A stretch of 64,000 nt of DNA from NCBI RefSeq assembly GCF_009834785.1, contig NZ_WUYX01000026.1:69252-133251 (forward strand), read 5' to 3'. The number at the start of each line of letters is the position of its first letter. Within the stretch, counting starts at the first letter, position 1. A model generated the notes under the pieces. It worked only from the letters and a program-made list of their open reading frames with translations, did no database searches and was not told where the DNA came from. A program made the translations under genes and the position numbers. Below are positions 45,640 through 52,735 of the stretch, in pieces. The DNA is from Natronorubrum halalkaliphilum. GTDB lineage: Archaea; Halobacteriota; Halobacteria; Halobacteriales; Natrialbaceae.

Positions 45640-46851
45640 ATGACGACGAAGCCACCCACTCGCGCCGGGAACCCGTTCGCAGCGATCGACCTCCCCGACG
45701 GCAGCGATCCCGTCTCGAAGGGAATCGTCCGCGGGTTCGACAGGCGGGACGGGACGGTGACGGTCGAGGTCGCGATCGACGGCCTCGGAGACGGTCTAGC
45801 CGAGCGCATCGTTGAACAGATCCGCGGCGCCGCACTGGCCCTCCCGGAGACCCGACGCGTTCGGGTCCTCCCGGCGCGACACGAGGACAAAGACGTCGAG
45901 CTACCCGCGGTCGACCACGTGATCGCCGTCGCGAGCGCGAAAGGCGGCGTCGGCAAGACGACGGTCTCCGTCGCGCTCGCCCGGACCCTCTCGGCGCGGG
46001 GGTACGACGTCGGGCTGTTCGATGCGGATATCTACGGTCCGAACGTCCCGCACCTCCTCCCGGAAGTCGAGGGGCCGGTCCTGACGAACGGACACGGCCA
46101 GCCGGTTCCCCTCGAGGGCGACGAGGGGCTCCAGGTGCTCAGCCCCGGCGTCGTCGGTGGCGATCCGCCGACGGCTCGTCGCGGCGCGATCGCCTACGGC
46201 GCGGTCGAAAACTTGCTCGGCCAGGGTGCCTGGGACCAACGCGACGTGCTGATCGTCGACATGCCCGCGGGATCCGACGACGTGGTCGGCGCGGCGCTCG
46301 AGCACGTGCCGGTCGACGGGGCCGTCTTCGTGACGACGCCGTTCGACGCGAGCGTCGACGACACGCGACGGACGATCGAACTGTTCGACGAACGAGGCGT
46401 CACCCCCGCCGCGGGGGTGGTCAACATGAGCGGGTTCGAATGCGAGTGCTGTGGCACACAGAACACCCTGTTTGAGGGCTCGGTCGACCTCGACGTTCCG
46501 GTCGTCCACGAACTCCCGTTCGATCGATCGCTCCAACGAAATCCCGGCGGTCGCCGCGAGTACGAGGCCTTCGACGCCCTCACCGAGACGGTCGGCGCGT
46601 TCGTCGACGAGGTGCTCGATGACGTGCCCGACGATGCACTCGACCTGCGCGGGTTGCCTCTGGAGAGCCAGGTCCGGCAGTTGAGCGACGAACTGGGAAC
46701 GGTGACGGCCGGAACTCGCGTGCGGGCCGTCGTCGAGGACCCGACCGGCGTCTGCGACGTGCTCCGGCGTGACGTCGGCGACGTGCTGGCCGCCGCAGAC
46801 CGCTCGCAACTGGGGACGACCGGCGCGATGATCGAACTGAGGAGGGGGTAA
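45640..46851 (+). CDS. Mrp/NBP35-type P-loop ATPase
   Basis: A 403-residue ATPase of the Mrp/ApbC family, which carries or assembles iron-sulfur clusters. Residues 1-85 resemble the MIP18/DUF59 domain that often precedes Mrp. The deviant Walker A is ASAKGGVGKTT near 103-113, with DADIYGPNVPHLL and IVDMPAGSDD after it. A Cys cluster FECECCGT stands in the position of the cluster-binding CxxC. The last ~75 residues are an extension not recognised. First gene of the molybdoenzyme operon, so it may be a dedicated cluster-delivery factor for the five predicted clusters of the reductase. Confidence 0.85.
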   Translation: MTTKPPTRAGNPFAAIDLPDGSDPVSKGIVRGFDRRDGTVTVEVAIDGLGDGLAERIVEQIRGAALALPETRRVRVLPARHEDKDVELPAVDHVIAVASAKGGVGKTTVSVALARTLSARGYDVGLFDADIYGPNVPHLLPEVEGPVLTNGHGQPVPLEGDEGLQVLSPGVVGGDPPTARRGAIAYGAVENLLGQGAWDQRDVLIVDMPAGSDDVVGAALEHVPVDGAVFVTTPFDASVDDTRRTIELFDERGVTPAAGVVNMSGFECECCGTQNTLFEGSVDLDVPVVHELPFDRSLQRNPGGRREYEAFDALTETVGAFVDEVLDDVPDDALDLRGLPLESQVRQLSDELGTVTAGTRVRAVVEDPTGVCDVLRRDVGDVLAAADRSQLGTTGAMIELRRG

Positions 46852-46853
46852 CG

Positions 46854-47009
46854 ATGGCGGACTCGAGCGAACGCACAACGACACGCACTTGGACCATGAT
46901 TCGAACACGACGCTTCCGCGCGGAATCGGCGTTCAGAAACGCCAGAAACGACGAACCGCGAGCCAACTGGCACCGAACGCGACCGAAACCGAGGTGGTTC
47001 GATGGTTGA
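46854..47009 (+). CDS. Possible 51-residue basic protein coupled to the reductase gene
   Basis: The frame starts at an ATG six bases after GGAGGGGG, one of the best ribosome-binding sites in the window. It ends in TGA inside the first codons of the molybdoenzyme gene (ATGGTTGA), a layout of translational coupling. The product (MADSSERTTTRTWTMIRTRR onward) is Arg-rich and unlike an acidic haloarchaeal protein. It may be a leader peptide that only sets translation of the next gene, or not be made at all. Confidence 0.35.
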   Translation: MADSSERTTTRTWTMIRTRRFRAESAFRNARNDEPRANWHRTRPKPRWFDG

Positions 47010-50594: not shown

Positions 50595-51803
50595 ATGCCA
50601 CAGGTTCACAACTGGCAGCTGAATCGCGAGGTCGAGTTTCCCTACGAGGAGTCACGTCCCGAGCGACAGTGGGCGGCGATGTTCGACCTGAACAAGTGCA
50701 TCGAGTGCCAGACCTGCACCCTGGCCTGCAAAACGACATGGACCCACGAGGAGGGCCAGGAGCACATGTTCTGGAACAACGTCGAGACCAAGCCCTACGG
50801 CGCCCATCCGATCGGGTGGGACAAACGGACCTTAGAAGACATGGGTACGATGGAGTGGGACGGCGATACCTACGAGGGAGACACCATCTTCGAAACGGAG
50901 GACGTCGACTGGGACGATCCGGAGAACCACCCGACCGAGGAGCGTATCAACGAGGACGTTGCCGGCTTCATGCCGGACATCGAAGACGACTGGCGGTACC
51001 CCAACCTCGGCGAGGACGAGACCGCCGGCGAGGAGATGGATCTGGACGTCCACTTCGACGAGGATACGCACCCGATCTGGTTCTTCTACCTCCCGCGGAT
51101 CTGCAACCACTGCACGTACGCCGGCTGTGCCGGCGGCTGTCCGGTCCAGGCGATCTACAAACGCCCCGAGGACGGCGTCGTCCTCATCGACCGCGAGGAG
51201 TGTCAGGCACAGATGGTCTGTAACGAAACCTGTCCGTACAAGAAGGCCCAGTACAACCCGGCCGAGACCATCTCCCAGAAGTGCGTCGGCTGCTATCCGA
51301 AGACCGAGGACGGACGAGCGCCGCAGTGTTTCGAAACCTGTCTCGGAAAGATCCGACTCCACGGCTACATCAACACGCCCGAAGAGGCCGACGACAGCGA
51401 TCCGATGGCGGAGCCGACGAACCCGCTGGACTTTCTCGTCCATCAGAAGGAAGTCGCTCTCCCGCTGTATCCGCAGTTCGGCCTCGAACCCAACGTCTAC
51501 TACATTCCGCCGACGACGGCGCCGGTCGACTACCTCGAGCAACTGTTTGGCCCCGGCGTCGAGGACGCCTTCGAGACCTACCGGGCGATCGGCGACGGTG
51601 AGGAACCCGCCCTCGAGGGATTGTTGAACCTGATGGGGTCGACCGAGTGGTCGATCACGGCGTTCGAGGTCGACGACGGCGAAGCCGTCGGTTACTACGA
51701 GGGCGACGAAGTCGGTCGGGTACCCATTACGGAACCGCAAACCGAACGCGACCGCGTCGACGAGGTCGACGGCGAGGAGGTTTATCGACTCGACATCACG
51801 TAA
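50595..51803 (+). CDS. Four-cluster iron-sulfur subunit of the molybdoenzyme
   Basis: A 402-residue NarH/DdhB-type electron-transfer subunit. Cysteine groups visible: CIECQTCTLAC (35-45), CNHCTYAGCAGGCP, CQAQMVCNETCP and CVGC with a later CFETC, enough for four clusters. FWNNVETKPYG is a signature of the type II beta subunits. No Tat leader is present, so it should be exported as a passenger of the catalytic subunit. A perfect GGAGGTGA ribosome-binding site ends the upstream gene, two bases before the ATG. It passes electrons between the molybdenum site and a membrane donor that is not encoded here. Confidence 0.88.
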   Translation: MPQVHNWQLNREVEFPYEESRPERQWAAMFDLNKCIECQTCTLACKTTWTHEEGQEHMFWNNVETKPYGAHPIGWDKRTLEDMGTMEWDGDTYEGDTIFETEDVDWDDPENHPTEERINEDVAGFMPDIEDDWRYPNLGEDETAGEEMDLDVHFDEDTHPIWFFYLPRICNHCTYAGCAGGCPVQAIYKRPEDGVVLIDREECQAQMVCNETCPYKKAQYNPAETISQKCVGCYPKTEDGRAPQCFETCLGKIRLHGYINTPEEADDSDPMAEPTNPLDFLVHQKEVALPLYPQFGLEPNVYYIPPTTAPVDYLEQLFGPGVEDAFETYRAIGDGEEPALEGLLNLMGSTEWSITAFEVDDGEAVGYYEGDEVGRVPITEPQTERDRVDEVDGEEVYRLDIT

Positions 51804-51805
51804 CT

Positions 51806-52735
51806 ATGAGTGACAGCGACTTCAGCATTCTCGGTGGACCACCGAGCGAACGAAACGACGAATCGAGCGGAGGAAACAGGACGGCCCGTGACGACCGCGA
51901 CACTGACGCCGATCCGACGCCGGAGTTGCCGCCCGGCGATGCCGCGACGGCACTGCACCGTGCTCGGCTGTACTCGCTACTGGCGCTCGGGCTGGAACGA
52001 CCGGACGGTAACGGCGGTCTGGAGATGGACGACACTACCGCGCTCGTCAACGCCGCGGCGGCACTCGACCGAACCGTCGAAGACGCAGCGACGGCCGTCG
52101 ACGACCATCTCACCGATACCGCGGAACGCAAAAAACGGTGGGCGTCACTGTTCGGCGTCGAGGAAGGCCACACCGTTTCACCGTACGAACTGACGTACTT
52201 GCCGGGCCCGTTGCTGACCACCGTCAGACAGCTCGCCGACATCAGGGGATTTTACCACGCTTTCGGTATCGACGTCGGAGAAAAGATGCCGTATCGCGGC
52301 GATCACGTCTGTTACCAACTGGAGTTTCTCGCCCACCTCTGCCTGCGTGACGCACGCTTGCGTCGAGCAGGCGACGACGAAGGAGTGACGATCGTTGTCG
52401 ATGCCCGCCGCACCTTTCTCGAGGCCCACCTCGGCCGATGGTTCTGGCGGTTCGCCGGTGAGATAAGCGCCCACGACGACGGCTTCTTCGCCGCGGTGGC
52501 CGATCTCCTGGCGGCGCTCGTCGAAGACGAGATAGCGATACTCGACCTCGATCCGGAGTGGGTGCCGGATACGTCCGAGGTAACGGAGTGGAACGAGGGT
52601 ATCTTCGGAGCGGCCGGCCGTAGCTGCGGTGGGTGTGGAGCCGACGCCACCGGTCTCGAGGACCTCGAGGGGAGTCCGGGGAACCCAAGGAATCCGGGGA
52701 GTCAAACAGCGCAGGACGGTCTCGATGACCGATGA
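51806..52735 (+). CDS. TorD/NarJ-type molybdoenzyme chaperone
   Basis: A 309-residue protein from the ATG at 51806, two bases after the iron-sulfur subunit. After a disordered acidic ~50-residue head comes an all-helical TorD-like domain (ARLYSLLALGLERP, then YELTYLPGPL, FYHAFGIDVGE, YQLEFLAHLCLRDA, LGRWFWRFAGEI). The tail has CGGCG and a disordered end. Such chaperones bind the Tat leader of the catalytic subunit until the cofactor is inserted. Its place in the operon supports that it serves this enzyme. Confidence 0.85.
   Translation: MSDSDFSILGGPPSERNDESSGGNRTARDDRDTDADPTPELPPGDAATALHRARLYSLLALGLERPDGNGGLEMDDTTALVNAAAALDRTVEDAATAVDDHLTDTAERKKRWASLFGVEEGHTVSPYELTYLPGPLLTTVRQLADIRGFYHAFGIDVGEKMPYRGDHVCYQLEFLAHLCLRDARLRRAGDDEGVTIVVDARRTFLEAHLGRWFWRFAGEISAHDDGFFAAVADLLAALVEDEIAILDLDPEWVPDTSEVTEWNEGIFGAAGRSCGGCGADATGLEDLEGSPGNPRNPGSQTAQDGLDDR

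Follow-up and report, generated by a model that had tools for sequence, protein, structure and literature searches.

A haloarchaeal operon for an exported molybdoenzyme akin to periplasmic nitrite oxidoreductases, with a predicted role in nitrate reduction

Results

The window that we analyzed is a stretch of 64,000 nucleotides from Natronorubrum halalkaliphilum (family Natrialbaceae; NCBI RefSeq assembly GCF_009834785.1, contig NZ_WUYX01000026.1, positions 69,252 to 133,251 of the forward strand), whose genome comprises 4.56 Mb in 72 contigs. Positions 45640-52735 of the window carry an operon on the plus strand that encodes, in this order, an Mrp/NBP35-type iron-sulfur (Fe-S) carrier ATPase (45640..46851; PF10609 at 6e-49, PF01883), a molybdenum (Mo) catalytic subunit of 1196 amino acids, referred to here as A (47002..50592; PF00384 at 1e-17), a four-cluster Fe-S subunit with 15 cluster cysteines, referred to as B (50595..51803; PF13247, and TIGR03478 at 8e-71, a score below the cut-off of this model), and a TorD/NarJ-type assembly chaperone (51806..52735; PF02613 at 3e-17, TIGR03482 at 2e-18). 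The four genes are separated by gaps of 150, 2 and 2 bases, and a start of the chaperone gene at 51806, giving 309 amino acids, is more likely than one at the 5' end of its frame. The frames and their Pfam matches agree with the gene set put forward in an initial annotation of this DNA. Chance cannot account for the grouping, since the A-B-chaperone arrangement recurs in all of the 38 loci that we examined by tblastn with up to about 14 kb on each side, less at contig ends.

Searches with phmmer of the sequences in the Protein Data Bank (PDB) connect both A and B to the nitrite oxidoreductase (NXR) of the anammox bacterium Kuenenia. A matched NxrA (7b04_B) with 716 bits over residues 14-1192, and the next matches were PcrA (145 bits), NarG (about 115 bits) and ethylbenzene dehydrogenase (EBDH; 111 bits); B matched NXR-B (7b04_A) with 337 bits, followed by EBDH-B (187 bits) and PcrB (186 bits). 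The NCBIfam models are matched by A far below their cut-offs (TIGR03479: 286 of 985 bits), so that an automatic name for this protein would presumably be a generic one. The AlphaFold model of A, which drew on 16 sequences, is poor (mean pLDDT 55).

The alignment with Kuenenia NxrA equates D284 of A with the Mo ligand Asp275, thereby locating the type II aspartate ligand that had been claimed for A, and this residue is present in all 38 rows of the haloarchaeal clade to which A belongs. N80 corresponds to the residue opposite Mo (Asn70 in Kuenenia), and the ligands of the FS0 cluster are C77, D81, C85 and C125; all of these are conserved in 37 of the 37 clade rows covering them, the 38th row being a split plasmid copy from Natronococcus occultus. 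D81 is the counterpart of Asp71 of Kuenenia, which gives FS0 an unusual 3Cys/1Asp coordination (PMC8387239); it is Asp in each of the 37 covering clade rows and Cys in 15/15 outgroup rows. As this type of coordination depends on lineage among NXRs and nitrate reductases (NARs) alike (PMC8387239), its presence in A is no proof of an NXR. All 15 cysteines of B align with cysteines of Kuenenia NXR-B, as expected for three 4Fe clusters and one 3Fe cluster, and only one of these columns varies, with Pro in 2 of 41 rows that include outgroup loci. A pattern resembling the signal of the twin-arginine translocation (Tat) pathway, [ST]RR-x-hydrophobic, occurs in 37/37 A rows with an N-terminus, judged by pattern only and with approximate frame starts. 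In 8 of these rows it is followed by a lipobox-like pattern; the A protein of the window is among them, with RR at residues 14-15 and the lipobox LAGC, as the initial annotation had read it, and is predicted to be a Tat lipoprotein.

The phylogeny of A was assessed with 102 sequences kept for alignment, which were thinned by group and length to trees of 59, 30, and 23 plus 4 added rows, with NarG, chlorate reductase, haloarchaeal DmsA-type enzymes and a second haloarchaeal type II lineage as comparison groups. Left out were duplicates (L061, L078), a partial sequence (L182), frames of less than 800 amino acids, and all but 6 anammox and 3 Scalindua-type rows. The reference relatives of NXR were the best 80 of 319, each with an identity of 61% or more to the Kuenenia piece, and had been found by pattern scans, unlike the haloarchaeal clade rows, which were found by profile. 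The haloarchaeal clade (21 rows) formed one branch in the tree of 59 rows, sister to the NXRs (99* SH-aLRT), and the joint branch of the clade and NXR received 100/99 in the tree of 30 rows and 100/100 in that of 27 rows, which contained three haloarchaeal Dms-type rows and the Ideonella chlorate reductase. A constraint that joined the clade to the second of the haloarchaeal type II lineages in the tree of 30 rows was rejected (log-likelihood lower by 53, p-AU 2e-7). The program flags long branches and unequal composition in these trees. The clade is placed as sister to, not inside, the Nitrospira/anammox NXR clade, with intermediate clades unsampled. A phylogeny among the Nar/Ser/Clr/Pcr/Ddh clades had been proposed as a check on A; our trees do place the protein in neither the DMSO (dimethyl sulfoxide) reductase nor the ordinary nitrate reductase clade, but the list omits NXR, beside which A falls. 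Extending the search to the phylum (176 genomes, many from this class) turned up no further relative; the four genomes with a match at E <= 1e-45 were already known.

The second haloarchaeal type II lineage (L007, L079, L173-L179) is characterized by a C-x-P-N-C FS0 motif and by many frames of about 1050-1100 amino acids. It groups outside NXR plus the clade of the window, and two of its loci (L007, L079) have a gamma subunit of the EB_dh type.

Across the 38 loci of the clade, B and TorD are present without exception and Mrp in 34; of the four loci without Mrp, one is cut by a contig end and another is a paralog in the genome of the window itself. MobB lies near 22 loci, and a regulator similar to the one next to the operon of the window lies near 26. 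Searches by tblastn for an EB_dh gamma subunit (three queries), a Rieske protein and cytochrome b gave no match in any of the 38 loci, while control nar loci matched; chlorite dismutase and a ClrC-type gamma subunit were likewise found in none of them, with positive controls for chlorite dismutase. NrfD (two queries) was matched near a single locus (L056, about 4 kb off), the controls L188, L189 and L191 being positive. In the window, neither EB_dh, Rieske and cytochrome b genes nor NrfD were found by tblastn between 38001 and 60000, and the cytochrome b domain PF13631 was not found in the genome. The lack of a heme or DmsC-like quinol subunit noted in the initial annotation is borne out by these searches, and the puzzle of electron entry that it raised is real and common to nearly all of the clade. 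Since the subunit is absent across the 38 loci, with the exception of the genome of locus L056 (G256), its lack characterizes the clade instead of reflecting a loss peculiar to the genome of the window.

Possession of an Mrp ATPase, in contrast, does not set this operon apart as the initial annotation had supposed, and we rejected it as a special feature. The same kind of ATPase occurs in haloarchaeal nar operons (L008, L009), on the plasmid L091 with its chlorate-reductase-type operon, and near the Dms-type operon L191; the Mrp protein of the window and that of the Haloferax larsenii nar operon (L008) are 41% identical (blastp 3e-62). In Haloferax mediterranei, a P-loop NTPase with DUF2249 increases during denitrification (PMC11218638). 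The Alisedimentitalea plasmid L091 (NZ_CP123588.1), typed as conjugative, holds chlorite dismutase, a type II reductase, a cytochrome c and an Mrp ATPase together.

A profile search of 391 Halobacteria genomes produced matches of at least 1914 bits in 32 genomes and then, after a clean gap, matches of 326 bits and below. Classical NarG (E <= 1e-150) was found in 86 of the 391 genomes and in none of the 32 carriers (Fisher p 0.0005). The copper nitrite reductase NirK is present in 210 of the 391 genomes, 24 of the 32 carriers among them. Within the family of the window alone (125 genomes), NirK occurs in 25/32 carriers vs 43/93 non-carriers (p 0.002), and within its genus in 2/2 carriers vs 0/8 others. 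On a plasmid of N. occultus, the ortholog lies near a quinol-type nitric oxide (NO) reductase and ric. The catalytic gene on this plasmid 2 (L006:14001-17395, NC_019976) is split between two frames and unannotated; the genome also has a full copy on a different contig (L058).

The genome of the window encodes three PF00384 proteins, namely A, a paralog on contig C44, and an enzyme of 701 amino acids on C65. The paralog belongs to a second A-B-chaperone cluster, which the initial annotation did not mention; the two A subunits are 65% identical, and the cluster adjoins MobB and a pair of an ABC binding protein and a permease, which likely serves molybdate uptake. Two NirK genes (C44:35226, C44:138262) as well as a copper-bind protein (C44:27065) are located on the same contig as this cluster (L004:10985-16564 and beyond). 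In total, seven copper-bind domains in six frames were detected in the genome.

Upstream of the operon in the window, and divergent from it, lies a gene for a DmsR-type regulator (44701..45474, minus strand; DmsR_N, PF24277 at 9.6e-46; HTH_10, PF04967 at 1.8e-19), which had likewise gone without mention. As its domain starts at residue 36, the true start is probably near 45366. A perfect palindrome of 22 bp with 10-bp arms and a 2-bp loop (45510..45531), a possible operator, is situated in the gap between this gene and that for Mrp. It is the sole inverted repeat of the window with arms of at least 10 and a loop of at most 2; it has no conserved counterpart in 8 related upstream regions, and of 187 loci only one (L011), which is the window's own genome, contains its core. 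The large flanking frames that were scanned encode a UvrD-type helicase and a histidine kinase.

Discussion

In the neighborhood of nitrate and nitrite enzymes, the closest counterpart of the operon is the periplasmic NxrAB(C) of Kuenenia (7b04), Nitrospira and Nitrospina, with which it shares full-length homology of A and B, the Asp ligand of Mo, the Asn opposite Mo, the 3Cys/1Asp FS0 and the cysteines of B. A chaperone gene also accompanies the periplasmic NXR of anammox bacteria, Nitrospira and Nitrospina. At the same time, A is only 33-39% identical to the sampled NXR rows, and the clade differs by the lack of an EB_dh-type NxrC gene in its 38 loci, by Mrp in the operon, by a lipid anchor and by its haloarchaeal host. 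Haloarchaeal NarGH (Haloferax larsenii L008, Halomicrobium L009) is similar in being an exported type II enzyme with TorD and Mrp in the operon and, in L008, with a helix-turn-helix (HTH) regulator. Its NarG proteins of 981 and 1092 amino acids are, however, just 29-30% identical to A; in their FS0 motif the positions of C77 and D81 are taken by His and Cys, respectively, a His/Cys pattern of four NarG rows that is absent from the clade of the window, and their loci contain the EB_dh gamma, Rieske and cytochrome b genes that its 38 loci lack. A classical NarG is therefore rejected by the FS0 ligands, the branch and the operon.

The product of the operon is, in our view, likely to be an exported molybdoenzyme for nitrate/nitrite that belongs to the periplasmic NXR/NAR lineage, acts in Natrialbaceae as a nitrate reductase and obtains its electrons through a soluble carrier. 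While gene content, motifs, phylogeny and distribution are established here, substrate, direction and carrier are predictions. In the cytoplasm, TorD and Mrp would assist in the insertion of molybdopterin and of the Fe-S clusters. The folded A-B pair would then be exported through Tat on the signal of A, with B, in which no signal is seen by eye, carried along, and the lipobox of the A protein of the window suggests a lipid-anchored A-B heterodimer. At low oxygen, nitrate would be reduced to nitrite at Mo, thereby supplying NirK, with electrons flowing from the carrier via the clusters of B and the 3Cys/1Asp FS0 to Mo. Because the operon lacks a gamma subunit, a Rieske protein and a cytochrome b, a soluble carrier would dock directly at the distal cluster of B, and halocyanin is a candidate in view of the seven copper-bind domains of the genome. 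The best-studied relative is bidirectional, and the enzyme may consequently also oxidize nitrite: Kuenenia NXR reduces nitrate as well as oxidizing nitrite, with Vmax values of the purified enzyme of 1.5 umol/min/mg for nitrate reduction with methyl viologen and 61 nmol/min/mg for nitrite oxidation with ferricyanide (PMC8387239). Nitrate reduction is nevertheless preferred as the principal direction because of the link to NirK, the type of regulator, the absence of NarG and reports that some species grow on nitrate although no narGH was detected in them. Seven such species, three of them Haloterrigena/Natrinema, grow anaerobically on nitrate (PMC8400030) and may carry the operon; the named carrier among our genomes is Natronococcus occultus.

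A number of points weigh against this interpretation. The assignment to nitrate or nitrite is a prediction from sequence and distribution, and the adjacent regulator is named for DMSO respiration. The FS0 motif was found in 49/49 NXR reference loci, a count that follows in part from the search design, as the motif was built into one of the two scan patterns. A sister clade of NXR that contains NARs (Nitrotoga, Hydrogenobacter, Caldiarchaeum) lay outside our sampling; the statement that the clade of the window is sister to NXR is thus provisional, and the clade may belong with these enzymes. Strictly conserved columns unite the clade with NXR in 19 cases, NXR with the other haloarchaeal lineage in 20, and the clade with that lineage in 7; the clade is clearly divergent, and this signal is less one-sided than that of the trees. 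The exclusion of NarG is confounded by family, as 29 of the 32 carriers belong to that of the window, where only four sampled genomes have NarG. The association with NirK is partial, with 7 of 32 family carriers, including N. occultus (G132), lacking it, and its statistic ignores shared ancestry within genera, NirK being common anyway (210/391). The quinol-NO reductase domain PF22085 was not found in the genome of the window in a search limited to that type of NO reductase, and a complete denitrification chain is hence not established there. Finally, the lack of a membrane partner is not universal, as an NrfD-ferredoxin module lies close to the enzyme genes in G256 (L056).

Haloarchaea are known mainly as heterotrophs, which speaks against an enzyme that would work chiefly as a nitrite oxidoreductase, converting nitrite to nitrate under air for detoxification or extra energy and delivering the electrons to high-potential copper proteins and a terminal oxidase. 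That NXRs are the closest sampled relatives, that the Kuenenia enzyme is bidirectional, that copper-bind proteins are present in the genome, and that the Nitrotoga paper argues for the possible existence of nitrite-oxidizing archaea (PMC6050957) all fit such a role; yet we regard it as unlikely, given that the gene tends to occur with the nitrite-consuming NirK, that the EB_dh-type heme gamma subunit of NXR is found in 0/38 loci, and that the adjoining regulator is of a kind tied to anaerobic respiration (PMC11218638). Improbable, too, is a distinct archaeal NXR of the Natrialbaceae, an A-B pair without heme subunit that would pass the electrons of nitrite straight to copper proteins, form nitrate aerobically in brines and reverse without oxygen; if true, this would be the first shown case of archaeal nitrite oxidation, and a minimal NXR. 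Type II molybdoenzymes are promiscuous, and a small probability attaches to a broad oxyanion reductase whose main natural substrate would be chlorate, perchlorate, selenate, arsenate or similar instead of nitrate, or to a truly new substrate. The chlorate-reductase-type plasmid operon L091 has the same Mrp partner, and 7 of 32 carriers do without NirK. Chlorate reductase itself is rejected by the branch and by the lack of chlorite dismutase in the 38 loci, where controls were positive: A is 28% identical to a ClrA-like row and stands outside the branch of both chlorate-type rows. As to the initial suggestion of a new substrate, no evidence requires one: the closest relatives in our sample are NXRs, and the distribution speaks for nitrate/nitrite.

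A haloarchaeal reductase of DMSO or trimethylamine N-oxide, as the neighboring DmsR would suggest, is highly improbable. The DmsR_N-type regulator does adjoin the operon, and an Asp ligand is presumed for haloarchaeal DmsA, too (PMC6650914); NarO, however, a regulator of the same kind as DmsR, serves denitrification genes (PMC11218638). The Dms-type operons on three haloarchaeal plasmids (L188, L189, L191) resemble that of the window in their type II-like molybdoenzyme, their TorD chaperone and, in two of the three, a nearby HTH regulator. They differ in an A of 827-836 amino acids on a separate branch, a small ferredoxin and an NrfD membrane anchor, and it is on operon layout and branch that we rejected a DMSO reductase. 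These operons are called Dms-type by layout, none being named dmsA in its record, and the tree holds no named H. salinarum DmsA.

A further question concerns the partner and not the enzyme. Instead of a soluble carrier, electrons might come from a membrane or heme protein encoded elsewhere, either an EB_dh protein or an NrfD-ferredoxin module, an arrangement that we consider doubtful. The genome of the window has one EB_dh protein (PF09459), on contig C59, and several NxrC-like genes are encoded by Nitrospira and Nitrospina (PMC3578206). The C59 protein has no PDB match at E<=1 and no visible signal peptide, and its close homologs occur in 29 of 391 genomes but only in 7 of 32 carriers, two of them as fragments; its service as gamma subunit is not supported by these data. 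In G256, a ferredoxin (PF16947), NrfD (PF03916), a small membrane protein and a second Mrp are encoded on the same strand (L056:242-4212, G256:C2), beginning about 2.2 kb beyond the chaperone gene, with no other catalytic subunit within 3160000-3193000 (33 kb) of the contig. In that lineage the module may serve as a quinol-linked partner, or it may have no connection with the enzyme; it lies near only one of 38 loci, and no search for one elsewhere in the genome of the window was made.

The closest sampled relatives of the exported haloarchaeal enzyme are thus bacterial enzymes that convert nitrite to nitrate, but the heme partner of these is absent. Proteins of the clade have probably been seen before. 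A survey of 2021 describes six 'NarG' proteins of Natrialbaceae as unusually long (PMC8400030), and their length and family suggest that they are members of it; in the passages of that survey that we consulted, no difference of the long NarG from other NarG is reported and NXR is not mentioned. The same survey could not account for how species that lack narGH, including members of Natrinema and Haloterrigena, grow on nitrate (PMC8400030), and the clade, from a family with many cultured members, is a candidate to explain it. Among the open-access papers listed in our literature searches, no title or start of an abstract reports a haloarchaeal NXR, and a figure legend in a 2026 review states that nxr has not been identified in archaea. 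Some genes of Methanoperedens are labeled cytoplasmic NxrA, a different type of NXR (PMC7327174). Archaeal members of the wider NXR lineage had been foreseen in the Nitrotoga paper, according to which the Nitrotoga/Hydrogenobacter NXR-NAR clade is the sister group of periplasmic NXR and includes putative nitrate reductases from both bacteria and archaea (PMC6050957). That clade may contain or adjoin the one described here, although Nitrotoga, unlike the operon of the window, has a putative NxrC (PMC6050957). Anammox NXR cannot be expressed or mutated (PMC8387239), whereas the haloarchaeal enzyme of the NXR lineage resides in a host related to genetically tractable haloarchaea. The near-constant absence of the gamma subunit offers a natural test of the purpose of this subunit and of what sets the direction of the reaction.

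Two minor observations may be added. A MAG (metagenome-assembled genome) of Candidatus Hydrothermarchaeum profundi (MTMF02000008.1, L117:8845-12321) encodes an NxrA that shares 72% identity with the Kuenenia protein over its N-terminal third; it falls among bacterial NXRs in the tree, and horizontal transfer and a binning error are both conceivable. Downstream of the operon in the window, on the minus strand, there is a very long frame of 2361 amino acids (56724-63809).

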